A DNA stretch of 39,703 bases from Cnuella takakiae (GTDB lineage: Bacteria; Bacteroidota; Bacteroidia; Chitinophagales; Chitinophagaceae), in assembly GCF_001953305.1 (NCBI RefSeq), contig NZ_MTFE01000010.1, positions 4,709,381-4,749,083 of the forward strand, in the 5' to 3' direction. Position 1 is the first letter of the stretch, and each line of letters begins with the position of its first letter. Positions 1,843 through 39,703 of this stretch are shown here, piece by piece. The notes beneath the pieces were generated by a model that saw only the letters and a list, made by a program, of their open reading frames with translations, made no database searches and was not told where the DNA came from. The position numbers and the translations under genes are program-made.

Positions 1843-1967
1843 TTGGGAAACGTGAAACGGCAAACGTGAAAAGTGATGGGGCAATGGTCAAAGGCTAATA
1901 GTAAATAAGTTTTGCAGGTAAAAGCCGTTGCCATCGTACCTTAAAAAATTGCTCACGATTCACGCTA
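1843..1967. repeat. Word-repeat island with inverted arms (CGTGAA words)
   Basis: The left arm (1843-1880) repeats AAACGTGAAA-like words; the right arm (1950-1967, GCTCACGATTCACGC) carries their complement. G-rich arm first, C-rich arm second. The right arm ends one base before the MFS stop codon. Unique sequence of about 70 bp lies between. Confidence 0.55.
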
Positions 1968-1968
1968 A

Positions 1969-3480
1969 TCATTCCTTATTGCTGATATACATAGCCCCAA
2001 TCACCAGGCTGAGCGCAGCCACCAGGATGGGGTACATCAGGCCCACCAGTTTATCGGAAGTATAAATGGTGGTAAGCAGGGTAGCCACAAAAGGCGTAAG
2101 TCCGCCAAACACTCCATTACCAATATGGTAAGGCAGCGACATGGACGTGTAGCGGATCTTGGTAGGAAACAGTTCTACCAGGAAGGCCGCAATCGGACCA
2201 TACACCATGGTTACATACAGGATCATCATAAACACAATGGCCACCATTTTCCAGTAATCGGCAGTGCCCAGCACCTTCGACACTTTTACGTCAGGCTTGC
2301 TAACCTGGGTTGCCGAAGAAGCATACACCGTATCTTTTTGCGTGGTCATTATCACCATACCACTGGCAAAGGTTGCCCTTGTTACCTGGGTGCGCAGCAC
2401 GTTGGTGGTATTGGCAATGGCCGCAGTAGACTCTTTCACCTCCGAGCTGGCAGCGAGGGCTTCCGAAGGGGTGGAAATTTCCAGCATTTTACCAAAGAGC
2501 GGCTTATAGGTAACAATGGCCACCAGCATACCGGTAAGGATGATCCACTTGCGGCCAATTTTATCGCTCCACGAACCAAACACCACAAAAAAAGGCGTGG
2601 CAAAAAGAATGGCCCAGATCAGGATGGTGCGGCTTTGCTCGAAATCGATTTTACACACATTTTCCATAAAGGACTGGGCGTAAAACTGGCCCGTGTACCA
2701 CACCACACCCTGTCCCATGGTAGCGCCAAACAGTGCCAGCAATACCATCTTCAGGTTGGCCCGGTGGCCAAAGGATTCCTTCAGGGGGTTTACAGAAACC
2801 TTCCCCTCCGACTTCAGCTTTGTAAACAGCGGCGACTCTTTCATCTTCATCCGGATATACACCGATACCAGCACCAGCACAATAGATACAAGGAAAGGAA
2901 TACGCCAGCCCCAATCATTGAACTTGGCAATAGAAACAGTTGGGTCGGCATCGAGGCTATGACGGGTGATGAGGATAACACCCAGCGAAACAAAGAGCCC
3001 CAGGGTTGCCGTAGTTTGAATCCAGGAAGTGAAGTAGCCACGCCGGTTGGCAGGTGCATGCTCGGCCACATAGGTAGCAGCGCCGCCATACTCGCCTCCA
3101 AGGGCAAGGCCCTGCAGCAGGCGCAGCAACAACACGATTATAGGTGCTGCAAAACCAATGCTTTCGTAACTCGGCACCAGGCCAATGGCAAAGGTGGACC
3201 CACCCATCAGCACCAGCGTGAGCAGGAAGGTGTACTTGCGGCCAATGAGGTCGCCAAGCCGGCCAAACACCAGTGCGCCAAAAGGCCGCACAATAAAACC
3301 TGCGGCAAAAGTGGCCAGGGTACTCAACAGGGCGGCAGTAGGATTGGTATTGGGAAAAAACTGGCTGGCTATTACCGTTGCCAGCGAACCGAAAATGTAA
3401 AAGTCGTACCACTCAATAAGGGTACCCAGCGAGGAAGCACCAATGACCTTCCAGATGCCTTTGGGAGACGCGTTGTTCAT
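1969..3480 (-). CDS. MFS transporter, metabolite:H+ symporter (MHS) type
   Basis: 503 residues with the 12-helix MFS fold. The loop 2-3 motif GRLGDLIGRKYTF and its second-half counterpart SWSDKIGRKWIIL are present, and LLLRLLQGLALGGEYGGAAT is typical of the MHS branch (ProP, KgtP, shikimate-type symporters). The start is the ATG at 3478-3480. Between the helix after the second GRK motif and the next helix there is an Ala/Ser/Thr-rich insert of about 70 residues (roughly 330-400) absent from standard MHS proteins. It is probably co-transcribed with the 79-residue membrane protein and divergent from acs, which would fit uptake of a carboxylate such as acetate or another organic acid, but the substrate is not determined. 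Confidence 0.88.
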   Translation of the reverse strand: MNNASPKGIWKVIGASSLGTLIEWYDFYIFGSLATVIASQFFPNTNPTAALLSTLATFAAGFIVRPFGALVFGRLGDLIGRKYTFLLTLVLMGGSTFAIGLVPSYESIGFAAPIIVLLLRLLQGLALGGEYGGAATYVAEHAPANRRGYFTSWIQTTATLGLFVSLGVILITRHSLDADPTVSIAKFNDWGWRIPFLVSIVLVLVSVYIRMKMKESPLFTKLKSEGKVSVNPLKESFGHRANLKMVLLALFGATMGQGVVWYTGQFYAQSFMENVCKIDFEQSRTILIWAILFATPFFVVFGSWSDKIGRKWIILTGMLVAIVTYKPLFGKMLEISTPSEALAASSEVKESTAAIANTTNVLRTQVTRATFASGMVIMTTQKDTVYASSATQVSKPDVKVSKVLGTADYWKMVAIVFMMILYVTMVYGPIAAFLVELFPTKIRYTSMSLPYHIGNGVFGGLTPFVATLLTTIYTSDKLVGLMYPILVAALSLVIGAMYISNKE

Positions 3481-3932
3481 ACAGCCAATCGAAGTTTGTG
3501 GTGAAAAAGATAAGGAGATGTGGGGGATAAATGCTTGCTGATTATTGATAATTAATTATTCGCCTGGCTTTTTCACCAGGAGTAAAAGGCTACAACCAAT
3601 CAGATATAAGCAAAGAAAAACATGCATTGGCAGCACTGCACCCTCCTGGCGGCCAGCACGATCAGGTTGGGGGAGGCAATAGCCGCCTGTTGCTGCGGAT
3701 TGCGATACAAAACGCCTTTAATAAATCCGGTAATCCCGGTTTTCGATCCAGACGATAAGAATGGCGGGCACTGCCATTTTGCAATTAAACCTTACATGGC
3801 TGGTGTGCAGCTAAATATCGCTTGTTTACACAACAGAGCCCTGCTGTTGAAAGCCTTCCTCTACTAAATTAGCAACCAAGGTTTGAGTCCTCACGCTATT
3901 TACTAGTACATTAGTTCCACAATTCACATTGC
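3481..3932. other. 452-bp divergent spacer between the MFS and acs genes
   Basis: No convincing gene. A + strand frame at 3622-3867 has Cys/His-rich, unrecognisable product and is taken as chance. Small hairpins are visible: CCTGG/CCAGG at 3563-3580, and AATGGC-N7-GCCATT at 3760-3778 followed by TTTT. The latter could be a leader hairpin for acs. I could not identify a clean TAnnTTTG box for acs. The spacer probably holds both promoters and their operators. Confidence 0.5.
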
Positions 3933-11433: not shown

Positions 11434-11482
11434 CCAAAACAAAAAACCAAAAACCAGAAACCCCAAACTCCAAACGCCAAAC
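11434..11482. repeat. Single C-rich word-repeat arm upstream of the RidA gene
   Basis: A/C-only stretch made of words such as AAAACCAAAAACC, CCCAAACTCC and AAACGCC. The same words occur in the islands at 11898-11988 and 27027-27200. It lies about 34 bp upstream of the RidA start. Confidence 0.5.
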
Positions 11483-11515: not shown

Positions 11516-11896
11516 ATGGAACGTACCATCATCAACACCAGCAACGCACCAGCACCCATCGGCCCTTATAACCAGGCCGTGCTGGTAAACGGCACCCTGT
11601 ATATCTCTGGACAGATCTGTTTGGATGCCGCCAGCGGACAGCTTAAAAACCGCGACATCCAGGAAGAAACCCATACCTGTTTACAAAATCTCAAGGCCAT
11701 CCTGCAGGAAGCAGGCATGAGCTTCGCCAACGTGGTAAAGACCACTATTTTTATTACCGACATGCACCAGTTCAGCGAAATCAACGAGGTTTACGGCAAA
11801 TATTTTTCAGGCAACTTCCCCGCCCGTGAAACCGTGCAGGTAGCTGCATTGCCCAAGTTTGTGAATGTGGAGATCAGTATGATTGCAGTTCAATAA
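11516..11896 (+). CDS. ridA: RidA family reactive imine/enamine deaminase
   Basis: 126 residues, normal length. RidA proteins hydrolyse 2-aminoacrylate and related imines released by PLP enzymes to ketoacids and ammonia. Family signatures are visible: NAPAPIGPYNQAVLVNGTLY at the start, ISGQICLD, and near the C-terminus NFPARETVQVAALPKFVNVE with the carboxylate-binding Arg (about 104). Cytosolic; it forms trimers in known members. The gene stands alone between two repeat islands, with a terminator at 11997-12020 behind it. Symbol by family; the exact subgroup is not determined. Confidence 0.93.
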   Translation: MERTIINTSNAPAPIGPYNQAVLVNGTLYISGQICLDAASGQLKNRDIQEETHTCLQNLKAILQEAGMSFANVVKTTIFITDMHQFSEINEVYGKYFSGNFPARETVQVAALPKFVNVEISMIAVQ

Positions 11897-11897: not shown

Positions 11898-11988
11898 CAG
11901 TTTCTGGTTTTTAGTTTTTGGTTGTGGCAAATAGTGCCTCCCCTTTCATCAGCAGCCACTAAAAACCAAAAACCAAAAACAAACAACC
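11898..11988. repeat. Word-repeat island with inverted arms (GGTTTTTAG words)
   Basis: The left arm 11898-11927 (TTTCTGGTTTTTAG, TTTTTGG) and right arm 11956-11988 (CTAAAAACC, AAAACCAAAAAC) are inverted copies of the same words around a 28-bp unique centre. It begins just after the RidA stop and is followed by a terminator. Confidence 0.65.
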
Positions 11989-12040: not shown

Positions 12041-13588
12041 ATGAGGACCTTTTTTGTGCTCGCACTAACCGCAACCCTCCAGGTGGGCCTGGCCCAGAAA
12101 ACCGTAGCGCCGCCCGATGAAATCTATGGCGAACTGTTTCGCGATGTGCAGCTGGCACGCATTTTCCCCGACAACAAAACCTTTGTTGACTGTACCCCCA
12201 AACGCGACCCTGCTGCCATCGTTGCTGATTACAAAAAGATCCGGAGCAATCCTGCCATCCGCTTTAGCCTCGAGCTGTTTGTAAAAGAAAATTTTCACCT
12301 GCCCCCTACCCCTGCTTCCAACTATAAAAGCAGCGAGGCCGATGTGTCGGAACACATCCAGGACCTGTGGCAGGTACTGAAAAGGGGCAACGACTCGATG
12401 GTGAAAGGCTCTTCGCTGCTGCCCCTGCCCCACCCCTATATTGTTCCCGGTGGCCGCTTCCGCGAGATATACTACTGGGATTCTTATTTTACGATGCTGG
12501 GCCTCAGGGAAAGCGGCGAGCACCAGCAAGTTGAAAACATGGTGCGCAATTTTGCCTACCTCATTAACACCTACGGTCATATACCCAACGGCAACCGCTC
12601 CTATTACCTGAGCCGCTCGCAGCCACCCTTTTTCGCCCTGATGGTTGGCCTGCTGGCCGAGATCAAAGGCGAAGACATTTTTACTGAAATGCTGCCTGCC
12701 CTGCAGGGCGAATGGAACTACTGGATGGATAAAACCGCACCAACCAAACACGTGGTGCGGATGAACGATGGCAGCATCCTCAACCGCTACTACGACCAGT
12801 TGGACCGCCCCCGCCAGGAGTCCTATGTGCAGGACGTGGAAACCGCGAAAGAGGCAGGCAACAAGGCTGGTATCTTCCGCCACCTGCGCAGCGGCGCCGA
12901 AAGCGGATGGGATTTCAGCAGCCGCTGGTTTGCCGATGGCAAAAATATCAGCACCATTCACACGACCCACATCGTTCCGGTTGACCTCAACTGCCTGCTG
13001 TATGCACTGGAACAGGCGCTGGTAAAAGCTTATACCCTCAAGGGCAATACCGCTCAGGCAAAGTTGTACGAAACTGCTGCCGCCAAACGCAAAGCCGCCA
13101 TAAACAAATACTGCTACTCGGTAGCCATGGGCTGGTACACCGACTACAACCACCAAACCGGCCTGCATACCCGCACCTGGACGCTGGCGGGGCTTGTACC
13201 TTTTTTCCTCAACATCGCTCCGCAAAATCATATTTACCCCGTGGCGCAAAATACCAGGTTGAAGTTCCTGCAGCCAGGTGGCCTCATCACCACTACCGAA
13301 CGCACCGGTCAGCAGTGGGATGCGCCCAATGGCTGGGCGCCCCTGCAGTGGATGAGTGTGGTGGGTATGGAAAATTACGGGCAGAAAGAACTGGCCCAAA
13401 CCATTGCCACCCGCTGGATTCAACTGAACACCGATGTGTACAACCGCACCGGCAAGCTGATGGAGAAATACAATGTGATGGAAACAGGGCTGGAAGCAGG
13501 TGGCGGTGAATACCCTTCGCAGGATGGCTTTGGCTGGACCAATGGCGTGCTGCTGGGACTGAAGGCCAAGTACAAAAGAGGCATGTAG
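12041..13588 (+). CDS. treA: Periplasmic trehalase (GH37)
   Basis: 515 residues with a signal peptide (MRTFFVLALTATLQVGLAQ), so the enzyme is exported; it splits trehalose into two glucose units. Trehalase signature 1 is PGGRFREIYYWDSY (about 146-159) and signature 2 is QWDAPNGWAPLQ (about 425-436). The catalytic acid lies in GAESGWDFSSRW and the catalytic base in the C-terminal GLEAGGGEYPSQDGFGWTNG. No truncation is seen. It is probably monocistronic; a word-repeat arm follows the stop codon, and the next gene has its own TTG start 108 bp later. TreA is preferred over the cytosolic TreF because of the signal peptide. Confidence 0.95.
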   Translation: MRTFFVLALTATLQVGLAQKTVAPPDEIYGELFRDVQLARIFPDNKTFVDCTPKRDPAAIVADYKKIRSNPAIRFSLELFVKENFHLPPTPASNYKSSEADVSEHIQDLWQVLKRGNDSMVKGSSLLPLPHPYIVPGGRFREIYYWDSYFTMLGLRESGEHQQVENMVRNFAYLINTYGHIPNGNRSYYLSRSQPPFFALMVGLLAEIKGEDIFTEMLPALQGEWNYWMDKTAPTKHVVRMNDGSILNRYYDQLDRPRQESYVQDVETAKEAGNKAGIFRHLRSGAESGWDFSSRWFADGKNISTIHTTHIVPVDLNCLLYALEQALVKAYTLKGNTAQAKLYETAAAKRKAAINKYCYSVAMGWYTDYNHQTGLHTRTWTLAGLVPFFLNIAPQNHIYPVAQNTRLKFLQPGGLITTTERTGQQWDAPNGWAPLQWMSVVGMENYGQKELAQTIATRWIQLNTDVYNRTGKLMEKYNVMETGLEAGGGEYPSQDGFGWTNGVLLGLKAKYKRGM

Positions 13589-13625
13589 GGATTTTGGAGG
13601 TTGGATTTCGGATTTCGGAGGTACT
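13589..13625. repeat. Single G-rich word-repeat arm after the trehalase gene
   Basis: Words of the form GGATTTCGGATTTCGGAGG and TTTTGGAGGTTGG directly downstream of the trehalase stop. The complement (CCGAAATCCGAAAT) occurs at 38430-38455. Confidence 0.5.
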
Positions 13626-13696: not shown

Positions 13697-14809
13697 TTGC
13701 TCCGCCGACTGCTATACAAACCCGTGCTCTGGGCCACCAACAAGTTTGCTTCCCGCCCCAACAGGCAGCGGATATTTGCGTCGCTGGATGCATTGACCCA
13801 GGCCATAGAAGATGGCAAGGAAAGCAAAGGACCGGTTATCCCTTTTGAAGCTGCACAGGGCAAATTCATCATCTTCTCCGACCAGCACAAGGGTGCCCGC
13901 AACGGCGCTGATGATTTCGCATCCTGCGAAACCAGTTACCTCGAAGCACTTGAATATTACCACCGCGAGGGCTACCATTATATCGCTTTGGGCGACTGTG
14001 AGGAACTGTGGGAAAATAGCTGGTCGGCAGTGCGGCAACACCAGCAGCCTTCGTTTGCAAAGGAGAAAGCATTTCTTGAGGCAGGAACCTTTACCAAGAT
14101 ATTCGGCAACCACGACCTGATGTGGCAAAACGACCCGCTTGCGCCCATGTACCTGAAAGAAGTGTTTGGACAGGCTGTTCCTATTTACGAAGGCGTGGTG
14201 CTTAAAACGGTAGTGGGCGAAAAGGTAATTCGCATTTTGTGCACGCATGGTCACCAGGGCGATGAAATGAGTGACGGTAACTGGTTCAGCAAGTTTTTCG
14301 TTGCCCGTATCTGGGCACCGCTCCAGGCATTTGTGCGCATCAATCCCAATACACCGGCATACGACGATGGCCTGAAAACCACCCATAATGTATTGATGCA
14401 GGAATGGAGTGCGGCTCAAAAGGGTTTACTGCTGATTACCGGCCATACCCACCAGCCGGTGTTTGAATCGCTTACCCACCTGGAACGGTTGTACCGAAGG
14501 TTGTTGTTTGCCCGCAGGGATAACAATGCAAGCAGTATCTCAGACCTCGAACAACAGATCGCTTTCCGCAAGCGGGAGTACAAAGCCATTGGCGATGATT
14601 ACCTCTCGCTGCAGCCCTCCTATTTTAATACCGGCTGCTGCTGCTTTGCTGATGGCGATATCACAGGTATCGAAATTGCCGGTGGCAGTTTGAAACTGAT
14701 AAAATGGACGTACAAAGAAGGAAAGCCCACACGCCTGGTTCTGGAGGAAACACCCCTCGCAGACCTGCTGGTAGCCGTAGAAAAGCCGGAAGGCAGTATG
14801 TGGGTGTGA
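13697..14809 (+). CDS. Calcineurin-like metallophosphoesterase
   Basis: 370 residues from a TTG (13697-13699); the frame is closed by TAA 15 bases upstream and has no ATG before the first motif, so TTG is the likely start. The metallophosphoesterase motifs occur in order: FSDQHKG (D and H ligands, about 62-68), LGDCEELW (about 99-106, in place of GDxxD), FGNHDLM, CTHGHQGDE and TGHTHQPVF. The aromatic-rich C-terminal part is compatible with UDP-2,3-diacylglucosamine- or nucleotide-type phosphoesterases, but the substrate is not clear. It lacks a signal peptide. It is convergent with the M1 peptidase, with a terminator and REP-like pair between them. Confidence 0.88.
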   Translation: MLRRLLYKPVLWATNKFASRPNRQRIFASLDALTQAIEDGKESKGPVIPFEAAQGKFIIFSDQHKGARNGADDFASCETSYLEALEYYHREGYHYIALGDCEELWENSWSAVRQHQQPSFAKEKAFLEAGTFTKIFGNHDLMWQNDPLAPMYLKEVFGQAVPIYEGVVLKTVVGEKVIRILCTHGHQGDEMSDGNWFSKFFVARIWAPLQAFVRINPNTPAYDDGLKTTHNVLMQEWSAAQKGLLLITGHTHQPVFESLTHLERLYRRLLFARRDNNASSISDLEQQIAFRKREYKAIGDDYLSLQPSYFNTGCCCFADGDITGIEIAGGSLKLIKWTYKEGKPTRLVLEETPLADLLVAVEKPEGSMWV

Positions 14810-14811: not shown

Positions 14812-14855
14812 AGAGCAGGGATGAGTGATGAATAAGGAGTGATGAGTAAGGGTCA
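14812..14855. repeat. Single G-rich word-repeat arm after the phosphoesterase gene
   Basis: Words GATGAGTGATGAATAAGG and GAGTGATGAGTAAGG beginning a few bases after the stop codon. Complementary words (CTCATCACTGATTACTCACC) lie at 20587-20612. Confidence 0.5.
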
Positions 14856-15293: not shown

Positions 15294-15360
15294 CTGTCAA
15301 TCCTTTTTTAATCTTATTAATCACCGGTTATTAATCCTGTCCATCACCGGTCCAATTACC
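15294..15360. repeat. AATCC/ACCGGT intergenic repeat
   Basis: A run of related units: AATCCTTTTTTAATC, TTAATCACCGGTT, TTAATCCTGTCCATCACCGG and AATTACCGGTTC, ending three bases before the M1 peptidase stop codon. Other copies of the pattern are at 20445-20479 and 36765-36797. Confidence 0.6.
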
Positions 15361-18162: not shown

Positions 18163-18233
18163 ACAGGGCGAGACGACTGACTACAGACGGCAGACCACAA
18201 GTCGTTTGTCGCCTGTCGCCTGTGGTCACCTCG
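18163..18233. repeat. Word-repeat island with inverted arms (GGCGACAG words)
   Basis: The left arm (18165-18200: GGCGAGACGACTGAC, GACGGCAGACCAC) and right arm (18206-18233: GTCGCCTGTCGCCTGTGG) carry complementary words with almost no centre. It sits between divergent genes, immediately upstream of the MurU-like gene. Confidence 0.5.
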
Positions 18234-19470: not shown

Positions 19471-19490
19471 CTTCCTTCCGCTCTTCTTCG

Positions 19491-21313: not shown

Positions 21314-21330
21314 AGGGGCGCAAGGTAAGG

Positions 21331-21489: not shown

Positions 21490-21494
21490 ATACC

Positions 21495-22202: not shown

Positions 22203-22204
22203 TA

Positions 22205-22364: not shown

Positions 22365-22374
22365 TGAACTGTTA

Positions 22375-23131: not shown

Positions 23132-23132
23132 T

Positions 23133-24155: not shown

Positions 24156-24638
24156 CTACTGACCACTCCCCTTCCGCTCCACCCGTATGCCCACATTAAA
24201 TGCTTCCTGAAGGGGATCTTCCCGCATCAGTTGCTCTACCTGGAAGGTATAAGCACCGGCTTTGCGGAAATAAAAGCTGCCCGACTCGGGCGTGAGTGCA
24301 ATCCGGTGTTCGTACAGGTCGTCCATACCGGTGCCCAGCCAGCCCCTTTCGTTGTTGGCAAGCGGCAGCTCATACTGCGCAGCAGAAAGGCGGGTGCTGT
24401 CCGGCGACTGGATACCCAGCTTCAACCACAGGTTGTTGTAGTTGTATTTTTCCGAATGCCGGAACACCACGTACAAACGATAAGGCACGGCCGTATCGGT
24501 GATATTAAAAGTAAAACGAGGTTTGTAACTGCTCCTCCACTGGTGCCCGGGTATGGGCACCACCTTTTCATACAAATCGCCGGTGGTGCAGGAAAGGAGC
24601 AGTACGCTCAGCAAAAGAAAAAAGCAAAGATTTCTCAA
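24156..24638 (-). CDS. gldH: Gliding motility lipoprotein GldH
   Basis: 160 residues from a TTG at 24636-24638, giving MRNLCFFLLLSVLLLSCTTG, a lipoprotein signal peptide with lipobox LLSC. A TTG 21 bases further upstream (24657-24659) also opens the frame, but it is part of an exact -7 promoter box (24657-24664), so a transcript from that box would not contain it. The body matches GldH: KVVPIPGHQWRSSYKPRFTF, YRLYVVFRHSEKYNYNNLWL, GMDDLYEHRIALTPESGSFY. GldH is a periplasm-facing lipoprotein needed with GldB/D/J/K-N for gliding and type IX secretion in Flavobacterium; in non-gliding relatives it may serve secretion only. Confidence 0.88.
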   Translation of the reverse strand: MRNLCFFLLLSVLLLSCTTGDLYEKVVPIPGHQWRSSYKPRFTFNITDTAVPYRLYVVFRHSEKYNYNNLWLKLGIQSPDSTRLSAAQYELPLANNERGWLGTGMDDLYEHRIALTPESGSFYFRKAGAYTFQVEQLMREDPLQEAFNVGIRVERKGSGQ

Positions 24639-24656
24639 GCGCCGTGGTTTAGAGTA

Positions 24657-24664
24657 CAAAAGTA
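24657..24664 (-). promoter_or_regulatory. -7 box of the gldH-kinase-regulator unit
   Basis: On the minus strand TACTTTTG, an exact TAnnTTTG, about 19 bp upstream of the chosen gldH start. It borders the G-rich arm of the repeat island. Confidence 0.55.
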
Positions 24665-24669
24665 GGAGG

Positions 24670-24830
24670 AAGACCGGAGAGACAGGAAAGACGAGAAGTT
24701 GGGAAAGTTGGGAAAGTCAGTAAAGTCCGGAAAGACGTTAATAAAAGTTCAAGCGCTTCTATTCTATCACACAGTTTTTAAAATAGTACACGTCTTTACT
24801 GTCTTTCCCGTCTTTCCTGACTTTCCCGTC
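24670..24830. repeat. Word-repeat island with inverted arms (GGAAAGTC words)
   Basis: The left arm 24670-24738 (GAGACAGGAAAGACGAGAAG, TTGGGAAAGTTGGGAAAGTC) and right arm 24790-24830 (GTCTTTACTGTCTTTCCCG, TCTTTCCTGACTTTCCC) are complementary, with a 50-bp A/T-rich centre. The right arm reaches the yicC stop codon. Its words match the perfect 9-bp tandem at 39644-39703. Confidence 0.7.
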
Positions 24831-24831
24831 T

Positions 24832-25710
24832 CTACAGCACATTCAATACCTGCTCCTTGGCCTTTTCCAGTTCATCCTTCATCAGCACCACGGCTTTCTG
24901 GATGGTGGAATCGTATGCCTTGGAACCGGTGGTATTGATCTCGCGGCCTATTTCCTGGAGGATAAAGGATAGCTTCTTGCCCTTGCCTTCATCAACAGGT
25001 TCGTTGAGCACTGTAAGGAAATAATCGAGGTGGTTGTTGAGGCGCACCTGCTCTTCGGAGATGTCGATCTTTTCGATGTAATAGATCAACTCCTGCTCCA
25101 GGCGGTTGCCATCATAGTTTTCCTTACCCACTTTTTCTTCCAAGAGGCGGGTGATGTTTTCCCGGATTTTGGTTTGACGCAGCGGTTCCAGCTCGGTAAC
25201 AATAGCCTGTTGCTTGCGGATATTATCGATGCGCAGTTCTAGGTCGGCCCTGAGCGAACGGCCTTCATCAAGGCGGTGTTCGTTGAGGTTGTCGGTAGCA
25301 GCATGCAGCATGCCTTCAAAAATGTTCCACTCTTCATCGGTGAGGGTATCGCTGGTAGGAGTGATCACTTCGGGCAATTTCACCAGGGTGCTGAGAATGG
25401 AAGATGCATCCAGGTTGAGTTCGGCAGCAAGCTGCGCAAGGGGCTGGTAATATGCTTTAGCCAAACCGGTGTTGATGGTTACGGGTTTTGCATTGCCTGT
25501 TTCCTTGAGGTTGATGGAACAATCTACCGTACCACGTCCCAGCCGCTCGGACAATACCTTGCGGATATTGAACTCGAAAGGTTTCAGAAATGCGGGCATC
25601 TTCAACTGCAGGTCGAACTGCTTTCCGTTGAGCGACTTGATATCTACTAAAAAGGTTTTGTCTCCTACCACTTGCTCTGCGCGTCCAAAGCCGGTCATTG
25701 ATTTAAGCAT
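24832..25710 (-). CDS. yicC: YicC/YloC family endoribonuclease
   Basis: 292 residues, normal length. The N-terminal YicC domain opens with the hallmark MLKSMTGFGRAEQVVG and KSLNGKQFDLQLKMP; the C-terminal DUF1732 domain has NRLEQELIYYIEKIDISEEQ, RLNNHLDYF and the very conserved GKKLSFILQEIGREINTTGS followed by KAYD. E. coli YicC is an RNase that takes part in small-RNA turnover. A weak -7 box (TATCTTTA, 25741-25734) lies 24 bp upstream. A candidate small RNA on the same strand ends 80 bp upstream. In many bacteria yicC precedes gmk; here gldH follows. Confidence 0.95.
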   Translation of the reverse strand: MLKSMTGFGRAEQVVGDKTFLVDIKSLNGKQFDLQLKMPAFLKPFEFNIRKVLSERLGRGTVDCSINLKETGNAKPVTINTGLAKAYYQPLAQLAAELNLDASSILSTLVKLPEVITPTSDTLTDEEWNIFEGMLHAATDNLNEHRLDEGRSLRADLELRIDNIRKQQAIVTELEPLRQTKIRENITRLLEEKVGKENYDGNRLEQELIYYIEKIDISEEQVRLNNHLDYFLTVLNEPVDEGKGKKLSFILQEIGREINTTGSKAYDSTIQKAVVLMKDELEKAKEQVLNVL

Positions 25711-25789
25711 GTACCTGTTGTTTTAGATCGGGGTAAAGATATCTGAATTAAGGGGTAATAAAATTGGCATGCCACTATGCTGAAAGGAT

Positions 25790-25861
25790 AAAAAAAAGTC
25801 CCGCAGAAGCGGGACTAATATTGGGATGGGTTAGTAAGTACAGGAATCATAAAATTCCTGA
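25790..25861 (-). ncRNA. Candidate small RNA (about 70 nt) or attenuated leader upstream of yicC
   Basis: No protein gene on the minus strand precedes this site, yet a textbook minus-strand terminator is present: AGTCCCGC (25816-25809), loop TTCT, GCGGGACT (25804-25797), then seven T. Upstream is a second hairpin CAGGAAT-N6-ATTCCTG (25860-25841), and just before it TAATATTG (25871-25864), one base off TAnnTTTG, at the right distance for a transcript starting near 25860. The 24 nt between the hairpins, with CTTACTAACCCATCCC, would be single-stranded. Alternatively it is a terminated leader of yicC, although yicC seems to have its own -7 box further down. No known RNA family recognised. Confidence 0.55.
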
Positions 25862-26057
25862 CACAATATTAAAAAGATTTTTTGCGAACTAAAAAAAATT
25901 CATGCAGATTTTATTCACATTTTTTATCGTGGTGCAATAAATCTTGTGGATAGCAGGTGCATGTTGTTGCAATCAATGACCATTAACGATCATTAACCTG
26001 TCATTGCATCAACCACCAACATCACCTGATGCATCATGCAGGGATGCTGCTGCACCT

Positions 26058-26079: not shown

Positions 26080-27024
26080 ATGCGTTTTGCACAACCTGTA
26101 CCCATTACTGAAATAGCGAGCCTGATTGGTGCACAACTCATCGGCAATACCAATGGTGCAGCCACCGGCATCAACGAAATACATAAAGTAGAACTTGGCG
26201 ACCTGGTATTTGTTGATCATCCCAAGTATTACCAGAAGTGCATCCAGAGTGATGCTACCTATATCATCATCAACGAGGCTACCGATTTCCCGGAGCATAA
26301 AGCACTGTTGCTGGTAGACCAACCTTTTGAAGCATACCTCTCCATCGTCAACCATTTTCAACCCGTGCAACCCGTAACAAGTGTTATGGGTGTGGGTTCT
26401 TCGGCAGGTGCAGGTACTACCATCATGCACGGTGCGGTGATTGGCAACAATGTGCAGATCGGCGACAACTGCACCATCTATCCCAACGCGGTGATCATGG
26501 ACCATACCGTTATTGGCAATAACGTGATCATACAATCGGGCACCGTTATCGGCTCCGATGCTTTTTATTATAACAAGAAGACCAACCGCCCGGTGTATTT
26601 CAAGAAAATGCAAAGCTGTGGCCGCGTGGTGCTGGAAGACTTTGTAGAGATCGGCGCCAACTGTACCATTGACCGGGGTGTAACTGCCGACACGGTAATT
26701 GGTGCCGGCACCAAGATCGACAACCTGGTGCATGTGGGCCACGATGTCGCCATTGGTAAAAACTGTTTGATTGCTGCACAAGTTGGTATCGCCGGTGCCA
26801 CGGTGCTGGAAGATGAAGTGATCCTGTGGGGACAAGTAGGTGTCAACAAAACCATCACCATCGGCAAAGGCGCCGAAGTGATGGGGCAAAGTGGTGTAAC
26901 CAATACTCTTGCACCGGGTGGTAAATATTTTGGTCTGCCCGCCGAACCGGCCATGAACAAAAAGCGCGAATCGGTTTGGGTGAAAAGGATTCCGGAGTTG
27001 TGGGAGAAAGTGATGAAGGGTTAA
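26080..27024 (+). CDS. lpxD: UDP-3-O-(3-hydroxyacyl)glucosamine N-acyltransferase (LpxD-like)
   Basis: 314 residues from the ATG at 26080 (MRFAQPVPITEIASLIG). The N-terminal LpxD domain (about 1-95) leads into a left-handed beta-helix of hexapeptide repeats (TTIMHGAVIGNNVQIGDNCT, IYPNAVIMDHTVIGNNVIIQ). Landmarks are SGTVIGSDAFYY, GRVVLEDFVEIGANCTIDRG, and KIDNLVHVGHDVAIGKN with the catalytic His. The C-terminal part ends in a short helix. LpxD adds the N-linked hydroxyacyl chain in lipid A synthesis in the cytoplasm. Bacteroidota often have more than one LpxD-like protein, so another acceptor sugar cannot be excluded. A terminator (27092-27136) follows. Confidence 0.87.
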   Translation: MRFAQPVPITEIASLIGAQLIGNTNGAATGINEIHKVELGDLVFVDHPKYYQKCIQSDATYIIINEATDFPEHKALLLVDQPFEAYLSIVNHFQPVQPVTSVMGVGSSAGAGTTIMHGAVIGNNVQIGDNCTIYPNAVIMDHTVIGNNVIIQSGTVIGSDAFYYNKKTNRPVYFKKMQSCGRVVLEDFVEIGANCTIDRGVTADTVIGAGTKIDNLVHVGHDVAIGKNCLIAAQVGIAGATVLEDEVILWGQVGVNKTITIGKGAEVMGQSGVTNTLAPGGKYFGLPAEPAMNKKRESVWVKRIPELWEKVMKG

Positions 27025-27026
27025 GG

Positions 27027-27200
27027 GTTTGGAGTTTGGAGTTTGGGGTTGGGTGTTTGGTGTTTTTAGTTTCTGGTTTTTAGTTGATCGTAAATAGAAA
27101 GCGGCATGTCCATAATGAACATGCCGCTTTCTATTTTTAAGGCAACTCCTAACTCCAAACTCATAACTCCAAACCCCTAACCCCAAACTCATAACTCCAA
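27027..27200. repeat. Word-repeat island with inverted arms around a terminator (GTTTGGAG words)
   Basis: The left arm 27027-27085 (GTTTGGAGTTTGGAGTTTGG, GGTGTTTTTAGTTTC) and right arm 27141-27200 (CTCCTAACTCCAAACTC, AACCCCAAACTC) are complementary. The terminator 27092-27136 is the centre. Both arms touch the ends of the two convergent genes. Confidence 0.75.
27092..27136. terminator. Bidirectional terminator between lpxD and the AmgK-RapZ gene
   Basis: AAATAGAAAGCGGCATGT (27092-27109), loop of 9, ACATGCCGCTTTCTATTT (27119-27136): perfect 18-bp stem, T-rich flank on + strand and a T run on the other. Confidence 0.88.
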
Positions 27201-27203
27201 ACC

Positions 27204-28670
27204 CTAAACTCCATACCGTTCATTCTTCCACCCCTTCATTTCCTGCTCGCGGTGGAAGAGTTCTACTTTAACCTTGTACTTGTTTTTGAGGTGACGGGCC
27301 AGTGCATCGGCGGCATATACGCTGCGGTGCTGTCCGCCGGTACAGCCAAAGCTTACCGTGAGCGAGCTGAAGCCACGGCGGATATAATCTTCTACCGAAA
27401 TATCCACGATGTCAAATACAGAGTTCAGGAAATCCTGGATACGGGTCTGGCGCTCCAGGTAATCCATCACCGATTTATCGCGGCCATGGTGGAGTTTGTA
27501 TTGCTCGTGGCGGCCGGGGTTGTCGATACCGCGGCAATCGAATACAAAGCCACCGCCATTGCCATTATCATCGGCGGGTATACCCTTCTTGTAAGAAAAG
27601 GAACCCACCCTTACCACCAGCGGTGTTTCTTCGGTGGCCTGTATGGGCGTAAAATGAGCAATGACCTCATCGGAAGTACACAACTCCAACACCTTCCGGA
27701 ACTCGGGTAATACAATGCCTACGCTGTTGTTTTCAATAAACCAACGGAGGTTGTTCAGTGCCTGCGGAATGGATGTAAGGAAATGGGCCTTGCGCTCAAA
27801 CAAACCCCGGAAGCCATAGGCACCCAGCACCTGCAAGAGGCGGATGAGTACATAGCCATTGTACTGGCTTTGAAACACAGCCCGGTCCAGCGGCTTGCCA
27901 ATGGTGGCCTCAAAAGCATCCATATAATCGTGCAACAGCTTGCTCTTCCAATCATCGGGGAGGTTGGCCTTGGCCTGCCACAAAAGGGAGGCTACATCGT
28001 ATTGCGGCGCACCTTTCATGCCGCCCTGGAAATCGATAAAGCATACCGATCCATTGGGATGTACCTGTATGTTGCGGCTTTGGAAGTCGCGGAACATAAA
28101 GTATTTGAACTCCGTAAACGTGAGGTAGGAACTCAGTGCTTCAAAATCATCCAACAGCTTTTGCTTGTCGTAGGGTTTGCGCAAAGCATCAAGGAAGTAA
28201 TATTTAAAGTATAACAGGTCGGATAGGATGGCCTGCTTGCCAAACTCCTTATTGGTAAGACAGTAGTCGTAATCAAGTCCTTCATCGCCCTGCACCTGCA
28301 GTTTGGCCAAAGCTTTGAGGCTGGCTTGGAACAAGGCATATACATCCTCGGTATAGCCTTTCTGCTCCAGTACATTGAGCAGCGAAACAGCACCAAGGTC
28401 TTCCTGTAAATAGTGTGTTTTGTCGGCACCTACAGCCAGGATACGGGGCACAGGCAAACCCTTTTCCGTAAAGTGGTTGGAGAAGTATATAAAGGTTTCA
28501 TTTTCCCGCACATTGATACCCGTGGTACCAATAACGGTGGCACCCGCAGCATCGTGCAGTCGAAAATAACGGCGGTCGCTGCCGCTTTCGGGCAGCACAT
28601 CAACCTGCGCCGGGGCGGCGCCTTTCCATTGGGTATATAATTGTGTAACGGCGTCTATCAACTGTTGCAT
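27204..28670 (-). CDS. AmgK-like sugar kinase fused to RapZ C-terminal domain
   Basis: 488 residues. Residues about 1-345 are an aminoglycoside-phosphotransferase/AmgK-type kinase: PESGSDRRYFRL, the catalytic loop FRDFQSRNIQVHPNG and metal motif VCFIDFQGGMKGAPQYDVAS. AmgK phosphorylates the anomeric carbon of N-acetylmuramate or N-acetylglucosamine in wall recycling. Residues about 350-488 are the C-terminal domain of RapZ: FVFDCRGIDNPGRHEQY and VSFGCTGGQHRSVYAADALA. In E. coli this domain binds glucosamine-6-phosphate and RNA; the N-terminal P-loop kinase half of RapZ is absent. A -7 box lies 4 bp upstream of the ATG (28668-28670), predicting a leaderless mRNA. Its partner MurU is encoded at 17434-18147. 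Confidence 0.9.
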   Translation of the reverse strand: MQQLIDAVTQLYTQWKGAAPAQVDVLPESGSDRRYFRLHDAAGATVIGTTGINVRENETFIYFSNHFTEKGLPVPRILAVGADKTHYLQEDLGAVSLLNVLEQKGYTEDVYALFQASLKALAKLQVQGDEGLDYDYCLTNKEFGKQAILSDLLYFKYYFLDALRKPYDKQKLLDDFEALSSYLTFTEFKYFMFRDFQSRNIQVHPNGSVCFIDFQGGMKGAPQYDVASLLWQAKANLPDDWKSKLLHDYMDAFEATIGKPLDRAVFQSQYNGYVLIRLLQVLGAYGFRGLFERKAHFLTSIPQALNNLRWFIENNSVGIVLPEFRKVLELCTSDEVIAHFTPIQATEETPLVVRVGSFSYKKGIPADDNGNGGGFVFDCRGIDNPGRHEQYKLHHGRDKSVMDYLERQTRIQDFLNSVFDIVDISVEDYIRRGFSSLTVSFGCTGGQHRSVYAADALARHLKNKYKVKVELFHREQEMKGWKNERYGV

Positions 28671-28693: not shown

Positions 28694-28850
28694 GGAGTTG
28701 ATAGTTTTGAGTTTATAGTTTAAATGCAGGAGTTGGAAGGAGCCAGTTGAAAGTTTAAAGTCCGGCGTTCAAAGTTGAAAGCCTGTGTAAGCAGTACTTC
28801 AAACAATGAACCCCGGACTTTGAACTATAAACTTTAAACTTCAGACTGGT
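28694..28850. repeat. Word-repeat island with inverted arms (AAGTTTAAAGTCC words)
   Basis: The left arm 28694-28780 (GTTGATAGTTTTGAGTTTAT, GTTGAAAGTTTAAAGTCCGG, GTTCAAAGTTGAAAG) and right arm 28806-28850 (CCCCGGACTTTGAACTATAA, ACTTTAAACTTCAG) are complementary. The right arm ends at the stop codon of the next minus-strand gene. Confidence 0.7.
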
Positions 28851-33275: not shown

Positions 33276-33387
33276 TGCAAAGCCAAATTAACGTTTTTTA
33301 ACAAAGTGCATCAGTTGAGCCAAAATTTATTTTAAAGACCAACCAGGGCACTCAAGTGCTGCATACGGCTGCGCATCCATTCTGCTG

Positions 33388-33395
33388 TACCTTTG
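33388..33395 (+). promoter_or_regulatory. -7 box of the mutase gene
   Basis: TACCTTTG, an exact TAnnTTTG, 26 bp before the chosen ATG (33422). It also argues against the upstream frame start at 33356. Confidence 0.5.
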
Positions 33396-33421
33396 GCCGC
33401 AACGCTTGCTTATTTTATTTT

Positions 33422-36400
33422 ATGAGTTACAAAACACAAAACAAGATCCGTATTGTCACGGCCGCATCGCTCTTCGACGGGCACGATGCGGCCATCAATA
33501 TCATGCGGCGCATCCTTCAATCGAAGGGCGCCGAAATCATTCACCTGGGCCACAACCGGTCGGTACATGAAATTGTGGAGTGCGCCATCGAGGAAGATGT
33601 GCAGGGCATCGCCATTACTTCTTACCAGGGCGGCCACGTAGAGTTTTTCAAATACATGAAAGACCTGCTGGAAGAAGCCGGCTGCGGCCACATCAAAATC
33701 TTTGGCGGTGGCGGCGGTACCATCCTGCCCCAGGAAATTGAGGAACTTCACCAGTATGGCATCACCCGTATTTACAGCCCCGATGATGGCCGGAAGATGG
33801 GGTTGGAAGGGATGATCGAGGATGTAATCCGCCAGTGCGATTTTACCCTCAACGGAAGTGGCGTTTACAGCACCCCAATGACATTGGGCGAAGTAAAAGA
33901 TGTGCGCACCATTGCCCGGAAAATTACCAACGCTGAAAATGGAGTTGCAGGAGGAATGGCTTTGCAAGTTGAAGGTCGCTTTCCCGTTCTTGGTATTACC
34001 GGTACGGGCGGCGCCGGCAAATCTTCGGTTACCGACGAACTGGTGCGCCGTTTTCTCAACGCTTTTGCAGACAAAACCATCGCGGTTGTTTCGGTTGATC
34101 CCTCCAAAAAGAAAAGCGGCGGCGCACTGCTGGGCGACCGCATCCGGATGAACAGCATTTCCTCACCCCGCGCCTACATGCGTTCGCTGGCCACCCGCGA
34201 CGATAATACCGCACTGAGCAGTGCGGTACAGGATGCACTGGACACCTGCAAGGCAGCAGGCTTCGACCTTATTATATTGGAGTCAGCAGGTGTGGGACAA
34301 AGCGATGCCTCTATCCTCGACTACTGCGATGTAAGCCTGTACGTGATGACACCAGAGTATGGCGCCGCATCGCAACTGGAGAAGATTAACATGCTGGATT
34401 ATGCCGATGTGATCGCCATCAATAAATTTGACAAAGCCGGTGCACTCGATGCCCTCGCAGATGTGCGCAAGCAATACAAACGCAACCACGGCCTGTGGAC
34501 TGCCAAAGACGATGAACTGCCTTTGGTGGGCACTATCGCCGCACAGTTCAACGATGCAGGTGTGAACGAATTGTTTAAAAAAATCATTACTACGATCGGG
34601 CATAAAACAGGTGCCGATTTTGGCACCATTGAACTGCATGCACACACTGCAGATACCACTACCAAGGCACAGATCATTCCACCTAAACGGGTACGTTACC
34701 TATCGGAAATTGCGGATAGCAACCGTGCTTACGATGCTTGGGTAAATGACCAATCTGCGGTAGCGTCGAAGCTTTATCAAATTGATGGCGTGATGCAAGA
34801 TCTTCCAGCTCTTAAAGAGATGGAATCTCTGAAAAAAACCTTTGAAGAACGCCTCCACCCCTCCTGCCGCAAGCTGATTGAGCAATGGCCCGAGGTGGTA
34901 AAAAAATACAACGCCGACTTCTTTGAATATCAGGTGCGCGACAAGGTAATCCGCCAGCCGCTGACCACCACCTCGCTGAGCGGCACCCGCATTCCCAAAG
35001 TTGTTTTACCCAAATACAAAGACTGGGGTGACATCCTGCGCTGGCAATTGCAGGAAGCACTGCCCGGCGAGTTTCCTTACACCGCAGGCGTATTTGAATT
35101 AAAGCGTGCAGGCGAAGATCCCACCCGTATGTTTGCCGGTGAAGGCGGCCCCGAGCGTACCAACAAACGCTTTCACTATGTATCGGAAGGGCAGCCTGCC
35201 AAGCGCCTGTCCACTGCTTTTGACAGTGTTACCTTGTATGGTGAAGACCCTGCACACCGCCCCGACATTTACGGTAAAGTAGGCAACAGCGGCGTTAGCA
35301 TCGCCACCGTTGATGATGCCAAGAAACTATACAGCGGCTTTGATCTTTGCGACCCCAAGACCTCGGTATCCATGACCATCAACGGACCTGCACCGATGCT
35401 ACTGGCTTTCTTTATGAATGCTGCCATCGACCAGGAATGTGAAAAGTATATGGAGCAAAATGGTTTGTGGGATGCAGTGGAACAGGCTTATAACAACAAG
35501 TTCAAAGAGCTGGGCCGCCCCCGCTATTTTAACCCGTCGGCACCCGATAATTTGCCCAATGGCAATAATGGCTTGGGACTACGCCTGCTGGGCCTGAGCG
35601 GTGATGAGGTGCTGCCTGCTGATGTGTACCAGCAGTGCAAACAAAAAGCCCTGCAAAGTGTGCGCGGCACCGTGCAGGCCGATATCCTGAAGGAAGACCA
35701 GGCGCAAAACACCTGTATCTTCTCCACCGAGTTTGCCCTGAAGCTGATGGGTGATGTGCAGGAGTATTTCATCACCGAAAAGGTGCGCAACTTCTACAGC
35801 GTTTCCATCTCCGGTTATCATATTGCCGAAGCCGGCGCCAACCCCATCACGCAGCTGGCATTTACTTTGGCCAATGGTTTTACTTATGTAGAGTATTACC
35901 TGAGCCGCGGCATGCACATCGATGATTTTGCGCCCAACCTGTCCTTCTTTTTTAGCAATGGTATGGATCCCGAATACAGCGTGATCGGCCGTGTGGCCCG
36001 CCGCATTTGGGCCAAGGCCATGAAGCAGAAATATGGCGGCAACGACCGCAGCCAGAAGCTGAAATACCATATCCAGACCAGCGGCCGTTCGCTCCATGCA
36101 CAGGAGATCGATTTCAACGATATCCGTACTACGCTGCAGGCGCTTTATGCCATTTACGACAACTGCAACAGCCTCCACACCAACGCCTACGATGAAGCCA
36201 TCACCACGCCTACCGAGGAAAGCGTACGCCGTGCCATGGCTATCCAGCTGATCATCAACCGCGAACTGGGTTCGGCAAAAACGGAGAACAACATACAAGG
36301 CTCCTTTGCTATTGAAGAACTCACCGACCTGGTGGAAGACGCAGTACTGCAGGAGTTTGACCGCATTACCGAAAGGGGCGGTGTACTCGGTGCCATGGAA

Positions 36401-36763
36401 CGCATGTACCAGCGCAACAAGATCCAGGAGGAGAGCCTGCATTACGAGCACCTGAAACATACCGGCGAGCTGCCCATCATTGGTGTGAATACCTTCCTGA
36501 ATAAAGCGGGTAGTCCCACGGTGTTGCCGGCAGAAGTGATCCGCGCCACGCAGGAAGAAAAAGAATTGCAGATCCAGAACCTGCAGGCTTTCTGGCAACG
36601 AAACGCGGAGCAGCGGGATGCCGCGTTGAAACGACTGAAAGAAGTGGCCATCAGCAATGGCAACCTGTTTGCGGAGTTAATGGAAACGGTGAAATACTGT
36701 TCATTGGGACAGATCACGCATGCTTTGTATGAAGTGGGTGGACAGTATAGGCGCAGCATGTAG
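33422..36763 (+). CDS. icmF: Fused isobutyryl-CoA mutase (IcmF), methylmalonyl-CoA mutase family
   Basis: 1113 residues from the ATG at 33422 ([20 protein letters not shown]); a 22-residue upstream extension precedes the promoter box and is rejected. Domain order is that of IcmF: an N-terminal cobalamin-binding domain (about 8-140) with the Co-ligand His in [13 protein letters not shown]; a central MeaB-like G-protein chaperone (about 180-400) with P-loop [13 protein letters not shown] and NKFD; and a C-terminal mutase barrel (about 540-1113) with [20 protein letters not shown] and [14 protein letters not shown]. It interconverts isobutyryl- and butyryl-CoA (adenosylcobalamin), linking valine and fatty-acid breakdown. 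The substrate residues were not checked. A terminator (36920-36957) follows. Confidence 0.93.
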
Positions 36764-38407: not shown

Positions 38408-38457
38408 CTTCGCATTTCAACAACTACCGAAATCCGAAATCATACATCCGAAATCCT
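38408..38457. repeat. Single C-rich word-repeat arm at the 3' end of the AraC gene
   Basis: ACCGAAATCCGAAATC and CATCCGAAATCC directly beside the stop codon. The complement of these words is at 13589-13625. Confidence 0.5.
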
Positions 38458-38458: not shown

Positions 38459-39397
38459 TCACCCCAGCCACTGCATCTTCTGGTAGCTGCCCGGTGTAAT
38501 GCCTTCCACTTTACGAAACAGGCGAACAAAATAGTTGACATCTGAAAAGCCACACTGCTGGCTTATTTCCGCGAGGGAAAGACGGGGGTTGGACAGCAAC
38601 TGCTTAGCTAGTTTGATGCGTTCATTAATGATGTATTCAAGCGGAGTAATGCCTACCTGTTCACGGAACCATTTGAAGAAGTGGTTGCGGCTCAGGTAGG
38701 CTTTACGGCACAACTGATCAACCAGGATCTTATCTGTAAGATGTTCGTGGATATACCGCATTACGTATTGCAGCCTCGATGCATTGTCCCCCGACTGCAT
38801 GTCGTTGCGCACCTGCTCGAGGTGCTGGCTTTGAATGAGGCGGATCAACAGTTCTTTCAGGTTTAGATCAGCATATACATTCTTGGCCTTGTCGGTGCTA
38901 CTGCAAATACGGATCAACTTATTGATGAGGGCAGTTACTTCTTCATCGTTATCGAAGTGAAATTTATTGCAATGCAGTTGCCACTGCGTTTTGCTGTCTG
39001 GGTCACTGTTGTAATACTGGTTGAGGTATTCGATGGTACTGCGGATATAGCTTTCATCTACAGCCAATGCGATACACTGGGTGGGGTTGGCTTCAGATGC
39101 TTCCGGGAAATCGATCAGCATGGTTTGGTGCGCCGGCACAATCACCGACTCGCCGGGCAGGTAATCGAATGCAGGTGCTTCGGCAAGGTGCATCACCTTT
39201 TTACCCCGCACCATGCTGGTAATCACAAAATCAGGAAAGGTGAGGGCTACATCATAAGCTTCGCGGTAGCTTTCAAAAACATTGAGCTCGCAATTGTGCA
39301 GGTTAAAAATGCGGCGGTTCTCCACCAGGGTCTGGAGGTTTTGGGATGGCGTCAGCGCAACGGGCCGCAAGGTATTTTTTTGAGCCAAGGCAATCAA
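38459..39397 (-). CDS. AraC family transcriptional regulator
   Basis: 312 residues from a TTG (39395-39397); no ATG exists before the stop upstream, and a second TTG is three codons further in. The N-terminal domain (about 20-140) is a cupin-like sensor (VIVPAHQTMLIDFPEASEAN). The C-terminal AraC domain (about 210-310) has both helix-turn-helix units: LVDQLCRKAYLSRNHFFKWF and SLAEISQQCGFSDVNYFVRL, with the closing RLFRKVEGITPGSYQ. Effector and targets unknown. The upstream 300 bp contain repeats only, so its partner gene may lie beyond the right edge. Confidence 0.9.
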   Translation of the reverse strand: MIALAQKNTLRPVALTPSQNLQTLVENRRIFNLHNCELNVFESYREAYDVALTFPDFVITSMVRGKKVMHLAEAPAFDYLPGESVIVPAHQTMLIDFPEASEANPTQCIALAVDESYIRSTIEYLNQYYNSDPDSKTQWQLHCNKFHFDNDEEVTALINKLIRICSSTDKAKNVYADLNLKELLIRLIQSQHLEQVRNDMQSGDNASRLQYVMRYIHEHLTDKILVDQLCRKAYLSRNHFFKWFREQVGITPLEYIINERIKLAKQLLSNPRLSLAEISQQCGFSDVNYFVRLFRKVEGITPGSYQKMQWLG

Positions 39398-39519
39398 TCG
39401 TTTGGATTAAGATAAAGCAATTTGGGGAAAGACAAGGTTTAGGGTAGGCGGCCTGTTGCTTTGGAAAATTTGAATATTTGCTTCAGCATGACAGAAGATA
39501 AGGATATTGTCATGATGAT

Positions 39520-39587
39520 GCATGTCGGCATCTCCCTCTACTTTCGGGCACCCTGTTTTCAAAGGGGATGCCGACATGCGTCGGCAT
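39520..39587. repeat. Compound palindromic element (GTCGGCAT family)
   Basis: GCATGTCGGCATC (39520-39532) and its exact complement GATGCCGACATGC (39567-39579) form an outer inverted repeat; ATGCCGAC (39568-39575) and GTCGGCAT (39580-39587) form an alternative hairpin sharing the same bases. The two folds are mutually exclusive. Confidence 0.75.
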
Positions 39588-39643
39588 GACAAGCTGTTGA
39601 AGGTCGAATAAGCTTTCTACACTTAACTTGCGCAGCCAAAACC

Positions 39644-39703
39644 TTTCCTGTCTTTCCTGTCTTTCCTGTCTTTCCTGTCTTTCCTGTCTTTCCTGTCTTT
39701 CCT
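39644..39703. repeat. Perfect 9-bp tandem repeat (TTTCCTGTC) running off the right edge
   Basis: Six complete copies plus six bases of TTTCCTGTC, all identical, continuing past the window end. Same word as in the island at 24670-24830. Confidence 0.95.

Follow-up and report, generated by a model that had tools for sequence, protein, structure and literature searches.

Roughly a fifth of the spacers sampled in the genome of Cnuella takakiae (152 of 734) hold arrays of degenerate tandem words, and these arrays have tight borders and follow one orientation rule in all four classes of neighbouring gene pairs, the G-rich strand usually leading away from the gene. The dictionary of words is common to the spacers of the genome, and at three orthologous spacers the words differ between species. 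The reading favoured here, at a probability of about 0.55, is that word arrays that grow by slippage and disperse through the genome fill free spacer DNA and are oriented by the flanking gene border. An earlier note on this DNA had described islands of words with a constant plan and polarity; its observation largely holds, and its interpretation is partly supported.

Word arrays in the spacers

The window, that is, the whole stretch of DNA that was analysed, covers 39.7 kb of a 5.7-Mb genome. The sample comprises the window and 60 stretches of 20 kb each, evenly spaced at one in every 78 kb of the first 4.62 Mb of contig C1, which makes 1.24 Mb in total. Tandem words with periods of 6–10 nt were searched for in the spacers, inverted arms were scored as well, and dinucleotide shuffles served as the control; an array is called signed where it has a clear G- or C-rich strand, and unsigned arrays are counted separately. 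Genes were delimited with a custom-made caller based on hexamers, so that some start codons have probably been assigned too far downstream. Spacers shorter than 30 nt, longer than 1000 nt, or containing N were excluded, with a higher minimum length in some tests and with upper limits of 500 nt in the survey of inverted scores, 600 nt in the survey of promoter boxes, and 1500 nt in the test of pairs against edge distance. Bases called N either never matched or removed their spacer; in an early run the expected counts lay near 5 at every threshold, which was attributed to runs of N.

The sampled spacers contain 216 arrays, against 9.8 expected from the shuffles and 24 found in a similar length of coding DNA, and these two controls rule out chance or composition as the source; the islands are genome-wide, as the earlier note had supposed. 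They have the tandem units of about 7 nt and the enrichment in spacers by which heptamer-type simple sequence repeats are recognized, with a period of 7 nt in 150 of the 216 arrays and periods of 9 (32), 8 (28), 10 (3), and 6 (3) in the others. Within the window, 13 of the 30 spacers of at least 30 nt contain an array by our own gene calls, among them the spacer 25699–26043, which is absent from the 13 islands originally listed; 12 of those 13 belong to spacers with a best tandem score above every shuffle (p = 0.003), whereas 14812–14855 does not (Table 1). Rfam, at the gathering score, gave no match within the window, and one island compared with a plasmid collection by BLAST found none there.

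Table 1. Word islands of the window, with tandem and inverted scores where given; a tandem p of 0.003 means that the best score lies above all 300 dinucleotide shuffles
Position	Type and setting	Words	Tandem score	Inverted score
1843–1967	G-signed array 1847–1876; island between 1571–1810 (−) and the stop of 1969–3480 (−)	period 7	11.5, p = 0.003	not significant, p = 0.158
11434–11482	C-rich array upstream of 11516–11896 (+)	period 7; GTTTTTG/GTTTGGA family on the G strand	26.2, p = 0.003	p = 0.109
11898–11988	two arms; G arm 11900–11923 at the stop of 11516–11896, C arm 11958–11987	GTTTTTG family	16.1, p = 0.003	17, p = 0.010
13589–13625	G-rich array abutting the stop of 12041–13588	GGATTTC family	12.5, p = 0.003	p = 0.386
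14812–14855	after the stop of 13697–14809	14-nt unit given by TRF	7.9, p = 0.076 (not significant)	
18163–18233	divergent spacer; array 18201–18223	GTCGCCT words, skew about 0	11.4, p = 0.003	13, p = 0.010
19325–19473	two arms; G arm 19325–19350 covers the stop of 18385–19329, C arm 19400–19473 ends about 17 nt before a −7 box	period 8, GCTAATGT; family of 41 sites genome-wide		
20583–20621	C-signed array overrunning the stop of 20618–21313 (−), G-rich on the sense strand of that gene	GGTGAGT family	13.9, p = 0.003	p = 0.990
21331–21463	two arms in a divergent spacer, the C arm ending 18 nt before TATCTTTG			
24670–24831	two arms between yicC-like 24832–25710 (−) and gldH-like 24156–24659 (−)	period 9, GGAAAGACG/GGAAAGTCA; family of 41 sites genome-wide		
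27017–27209	two arms between convergent genes; G arm 27017–27085, C arm 27144–27209		29.8, p = 0.003	53, p = 0.010
28694–28850	two arms; C arm 28817–28847 above threshold, G arm by inverted alignment only	AAAGTTT family	12.5, p = 0.003	21, p = 0.010
38408–38457	C-signed array at the stop of 38459–39397 (−)	GGATTTC family on the sense strand	9.2, p = 0.003	15, p = 0.010

On their G strand the arms consist of 31% G, 31% T, 29% A, and 9% C, and their words fall into many families, not into one conserved word containing GGG. The view that each island has a word set of its own does not stand, since, of the 203 arms sampled outside the window, 182 score at least 14 against an arm of a different spacer. 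A larger set of arms gives 198 of 220, against 118 of 220 with the arms read backwards, and the stricter score of at least 18 gives 162 of 220 against 51; the array at 11434–11482, for example, has similar arms in 18 other sampled spacers. Matches of arms between species are in small surplus (49 against 32 of 208). Two arms of the same spacer share a family in 57.6% of 66 pairs, compared with 4.7% of random pairs, and the order of the words agrees between the two arms at p ≤ 0.05 in 4 of 68 pairs, roughly as many as chance would give; an exact inverted duplication of one arm is unsupported because the word order differs between the arms. The proposal that the arms surround a terminator is rarely true: a strict terminator, with a G+C-rich stem and a T run, occurs in 4 of the 70 cores between paired arms and in none of 70 shuffled ones, too few for terminator pairs to be the identity of the islands. 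The core of 27017–27209 appears, on a reading of its sequence, to contain a terminator-like hairpin.

Orientation at gene borders and in related genomes

Outside the window, the spacers with two signs read G to C in 30 cases, C to G in 2, and G-C-G in 1, with 20 more array-bearing spacers lacking a clear sign, and in the window two signed arms are detected in five spacers (11898, 19327, 21331, 24670, and 27027), with the G arm first in all of them. The polarity claimed in the earlier note is thereby confirmed, and the reverse order is clearly not as frequent. Among the two-sign spacers of the whole sample, G to C is the order in 16 of 17 co-directional spacers on the plus strand, 7 of 8 on the minus strand, 4 of 5 convergent spacers, and 7 of 7 divergent ones. 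Five word families searched for in the whole genome agree: among the matches listed, the two-strand clusters, formed from listed matches within 400 nt, have the G strand first at 48 of 48 distinct loci, 2 of which lie in the window, and in 49 of 49 clusters when the listed matches of all five families are pooled.

Arms outside the window that lie within 10 nt of a stop codon, many of them abutting it, are G-rich on the sense strand of the gene in 47 of 48 signed cases, as had been claimed, and the proportion falls to 9 of 13 at 11–40 nt and to 9 of 25 beyond 40 nt; arrays outside the window that are nearest a start codon show, on the sense strand, 65 C against 8 G. The orientation described by Rehm et al. 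(2015), in which the G strand is the coding one at stops and the non-coding one ahead of ORFs, is the one found here.

The tests by edge distance pool four sets, and their data are clustered by spacer and species. Pairs in the order G to C outnumber those in the order C to G by 41:2 when the nearer arm lies 0–10 nt from the border and by 14:3 at 11–40 nt, and pairs more than 40 nt from the border have no order (5:5 in 10 pairs, or 6:6 in 12 by a looser count). Most of these far pairs belong to other species, low-skew words are a confounding factor in them, and this genome alone gives 3 G to C against 1 C to G. Inverted pairs exceed direct ones by 58:2 up to 20 nt from the border, 8:0 at 21–40 nt, and 12:9 beyond 40 nt. 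Lone arrays also obey: in this genome they are G-rich on the sense strand by 24:1 within 10 nt of a stop and follow the rule by 19:1 within 40 nt of a start, and in the other sets the ratio of rule to opposite is 29:12 (29 of 41) within 10 nt of a stop and 23:4 within 40 nt of a start. At 11–40 nt from a stop, the lone arrays of the sets other than this genome have no order (7:8), and those of this genome that are nearest a stop but more than 40 nt away lean in the opposite direction (4:11). As lone arrays near stops follow the rule, it needs no partner arm, and this, with the lack of order in far pairs, speaks against the single element of inverted architecture that had been envisaged.

Array starts peak at −8 to +7 around the stop codon. 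The signed arrays that cover or abut it (to +5) number 57 G against 1 C in this genome (8 unsigned arrays excluded) and 61 G against 11 C in 80 named relatives (11 unsigned excluded), and those covering the stop are 20 G-signed and 0 C-signed in this genome and 24 and 2 in the named set. Array-free DNA 3′ of stops has no G bias, with G/(G+C) of 0.45–0.53, so the stop-side orientation belongs to the arrays. Seeding of arrays from the last bases of the gene itself is weak at most; swapped genes attain the observed end-match in 37 and 29 of 300 swaps in this genome and in 2 and 6 of 300 in the named set.

At the promoter, the strict −7 box (TAnnTTTG, 4–60 nt before the start codon) is found at 347 of 1855 start edges, against 50 with that stretch reversed. 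Over all sets, 36 arrays lie within 80 nt upstream of such a box, at a median gap of 7–8 nt and with 29 of them within 20 nt, against 3 arrays between the box and the start codon, and at the four divergent sides with a strict box the array is upstream of it in each; most promoter-side arrays in the box survey are without a strict box nearby. Arrays within 40 nt of the box comprise, on the sense strand, 25 C, 5 G, and 2 unsigned, and those 41–80 nt upstream 1 C and 3 G. Since array-free promoters already lean mildly to C over G upstream of the box, with G/(G+C) of 0.41, the promoter-side orientation may be ordinary composition. Selection for a G-poor leader (5′ UTR) is unlikely to be the sole cause of this polarity, because, wherever a strict −7 box can be recognized, most of these arrays lie upstream of it. 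Array ends, which fall near −7 boxes and stop codons, could aid the annotation of genes and promoters.

Judged by the YicC-like protein, the nearest named genomes are those of Paracnuella aquatica (86%), a Chitinophagaceae MAG (83%), and Flavisolibacter ginsengisoli (81%). Among 11 orthologous Paracnuella spacers, islands are present in both species in 3, in the window only in 3, in Paracnuella only in 1, and in neither in 4. The three in which both species have islands, 27025–27203 (convergent), 24615–24831 (co-directional), and 21314–21494 (divergent), have other words and the same G-to-C plan, in keeping with the earlier note; in the Paracnuella counterpart of 24615–24831, the G arm alone is above threshold and the C arm was recognized by eye. 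The yicC–gldH spacer of other genus members has, also by eye, still other words or none. The best 80 of 565 named loci contain 199 arrays, against 14.7 expected, with 24 of the 80 lacking arrays, and in these best 80 the order is G to C in 28 cases, C to G in 4, and C-G-C in 1. One genome, G003, obeys the polarity rule, and in another, the genus member G015, arrays are abundant and the polarity is weak (left 14:11, right 11:10). The phenomenon is patchy, because four genomes from two genera of the same family and from two other families (G022, G018, G024, and G029; 100 kb each) have almost no arrays, at 1, 2, 1, and 1 against 0.8, 0.4, 0.2, and 1.0 expected.

Origin of the arrays and of their orientation

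The favoured reading supposes that degenerate arrays of 7–9-nt words grow and reshuffle by slippage and spread between the spacers of one genome; we infer both the slippage and the copying. The arrays would occupy unconstrained DNA, with a stop codon on one side and a −7 box or another stop codon on the other, and each border would tolerate or generate arrays mostly with the G-rich, C-poor strand leading away from the gene. Because a spacer has two borders and its local word pool is often common, two-arm islands would mimic inverted repeats, a G arm followed by a C arm. The cause of the orientation that is thought most likely is outward transcription with an R-loop-like effect: outgoing transcription, with its ribosome-free RNA, may stabilize or drive arrays whose non-template strand is G-rich, and purging of the opposite orientation beside promoters may contribute. 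A wider formulation is offered as a tentative and rather doubtful extension, namely that word arrays renew themselves under a strand rule set by the borders of genes, through a border-coupled process at the level of DNA, for which R-loops formed in outward transcription, or synthesis of the G-rich strand from a template, would be candidates, so that words are rewritten and direction is kept, and that the same rule would operate in Bacteroidota, Xanthomonas, and Nostoc whatever the word.

If the islands acted instead in RNA, with the G arm and the C arm pairing into an extended, imperfect stem by which mRNAs of either direction are terminated or protected, the predominance of inverted pairs near borders and the many arms adjoining stop codons would be accounted for, as would the 171 of 681 spacers with an inverted-repeat score of at least 16, against 2.0 in shuffles, a count in which other repeats and terminators are included. 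Such a hairpin is nevertheless unlikely: divergent spacers, which have no gene 3′ end, show the same order in every two-sign case, arrays near a strict −7 box lie mostly upstream of it, the word order is unmatched between arms, lone arms obey the orientation rule, and strict terminators are few.

It is distinctly improbable that the islands record breaks in spacers that were healed after both 3′ ends had gained G-rich words from one template, as in telomere fusion. This end-addition would produce the uniform strand order of the two-strand clusters, seen among the listed matches of the five word families, and arms that use the same words in differing order, but the direction of lone arrays goes with the gene border, and no order is seen in the few far pairs. 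Less probable again is a mobile element of the MITE or REPIN type with incidentally repetitive ends. Word families do recur in many spacers and pairs are mostly inverted, yet 22 of 29 cores match nothing elsewhere in the 1.24 Mb at E ≤ 1e−3, which rules out a MITE-like unit with a common core for most islands; moreover, no fixed terminal sequence of the islands was seen, words differ between species at the same spacer, and a MITE-like family of this genome, by contrast, ends in a fixed sequence. Regulatory repeats forming G-quadruplexes, as proposed for the Xanthomonas heptamers, would suit a G-rich, C-poor strand adjoining gene ends but are hardly credible here, as a motif of four G3+ tracts occurs in 6 of 370 arms and a G2 motif in 68 (G015 excluded), by which the G3 form is largely refuted. 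Slippage-grown arrays oriented by the border are favoured because a hairpin RNA fits divergent spacers and lone arrays poorly and nearly all arms lack the motif for G3 quadruplexes.

Known repeats and the meaning of the rule

REP, BIME, and REPIN elements likewise form short inverted pairs in intergenic DNA, often close to the 3′ ends of genes, with a conserved palindrome tied to RAYT transposases; unlike in these palindromes, no conserved sequence was found in the islands. Heptamers of cyanobacteria (Calothrix) go under the name STRR, and Mazel (1990) reportedly dealt with them. Cyanobacterial heptamers, including those of Calothrix, and the heptanucleotide long simple sequence repeats of Mrazek (2007), for which an excess of 7-nt units in bacteria was described and slippage proposed, are cited in PMC4679880 and PMC4692102; they are like the present arrays in their 7-nt units, and in what those two papers say of them no orientation rule with diverse words was found reported. 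TAACTGA direct repeats are described from Beggiatoaceae, some Cyanobacteria, and five Bacteroidetes, where they are mostly forward and just upstream of start codons, with one inverted case in the main genome (MacGregor 2015, PMC4679880). They resemble the islands as intergenic heptamer arrays with Bacteroidetes among their hosts, but, as described there, they differ from them in being a single word, and TAACTGA or its complement, in any rotation, is absent from the 40 commonest words of the arms of this genome.

Single-word repeats with the same positional rule are already known from other bacteria, and the claim that nothing similar has been described was too strong. The GGGAATC heptamers of Xanthomonas are G-rich, mostly intergenic, and generally not tied to mobile elements; downstream of ORFs they lie mostly on the coding strand, up to 50 nt from the stop and in some cases overlapping it, and upstream of ORFs mostly on the non-coding strand, and pairs of convergent sites number 70 and 75 in two genomes (Rehm et al. 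2015, PMC4692102). The same report describes GGGGA(T/C)T repeats in Nostoc with a similar distribution of distances and with rare pairs (PMC4692102). The positional rule and the convergent pairs are thus common to Xanthomonas and to the islands. Compared with the single GGG-tract word given in that report for Xanthomonas or Nostoc, the islands have many degenerate families of period 7–9, in which G3 tracts are scarce; their dictionary is largely particular to the species, and the −7 box is one of their borders. A full-text literature search, judged by title and abstract and with most subscription journals outside it, found no paper on oriented islands of several words in Bacteroidota.

Short repeats are commonly regarded as noise, and here they follow one orientation rule that is largely independent of the word and extends to all gene-pair classes of this genome, a rule kept at three orthologous spacers while the words differ between species. 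If the same is true for unrelated heptamers in other phyla, as the account of Xanthomonas in PMC4692102 suggests, it would suggest that a strand-dependent process, or a constraint, acts generally at the ends of bacterial genes.

Arrays at gene ends and in the genus

Stops of the TAG type are more frequent at genes abutted by the arrays, degenerate tandem words of 7–9 nt in the spacers: in this genome TAG accounts for a share of 0.36 of the stops with an abutting array (n = 66 genes) against 0.21 (raw fractions). In the named set, composed of 80 named loci of relatives (L131–L210), the corresponding raw fractions are 0.37 with an abutting array (n = 82) and 0.21. Arrays are also abundant in the genus member G015 (L101–L110), where polarity, the order of G arm before C arm within a spacer, is slight, spacers are longer, and arrays lie at a greater distance from gene borders.

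At the right end of the window, a perfect array of 6.8 copies of the 9-nt unit CTTTCCTGT is found, and the sequence adjoining it is similar to an island core, the DNA between paired arms, in the sampled stretch L037, which is in turn similar to a segment of L036.

Dispersed inverted repeats and palindromes

One spacer carries an element of ~170 nt. Its two ends (CCCCCTGTCCCCC...GGGGGAACTTAGG) form a long and almost perfect inverted repeat, and the core between them resembles a hairpin. With up to two mismatches allowed, the inner end pattern of this element occurs 102 times in the genome, compared with 0 occurrences of the same pattern read backwards, and the element looks like a member of an abundant MITE-like family. 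A second dispersed inverted-repeat family, whose ends resemble ACCGGTGATTT...AATCACCGGT, is present in several spacers. Elsewhere, an AT-rich palindrome (AAACCTATAAGGTTTTAAAAACCTTATAGGTTT) takes up nearly all of its spacer, and similar palindromes are found in the sampled stretches L009 and L011.

Other features of the window

In the divergent promoter region that precedes the yicC-like gene, one portion appears by eye to share strong conservation with Paracnuella, a near relative; this portion holds only a single weak period-10 array, which sets it apart from neighbouring spacers. Elsewhere in the window, one ORF combines B12-binding, MeaB-like GTPase, and methylmalonyl-CoA mutase domains and is thus a fused mutase–chaperone of the IcmF type.

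Coordinates of the features in the window and in sampled stretches
Feature	Sequence	Positions
MITE-like element	window	22203-22374
Second inverted-repeat family	window	15308-15351
Second inverted-repeat family	L014	9656-9907
Second inverted-repeat family	L015	16203-16589
AT-rich palindrome	window	23101-23132
Divergent promoter region	window	25699-26043
Fused ORF	window	33356-36763
Core-like sequence	window	39564-39645
Core-like sequence	L036	16294-16362
Core	L037	
Perfect 9-nt array	window	39643-39703
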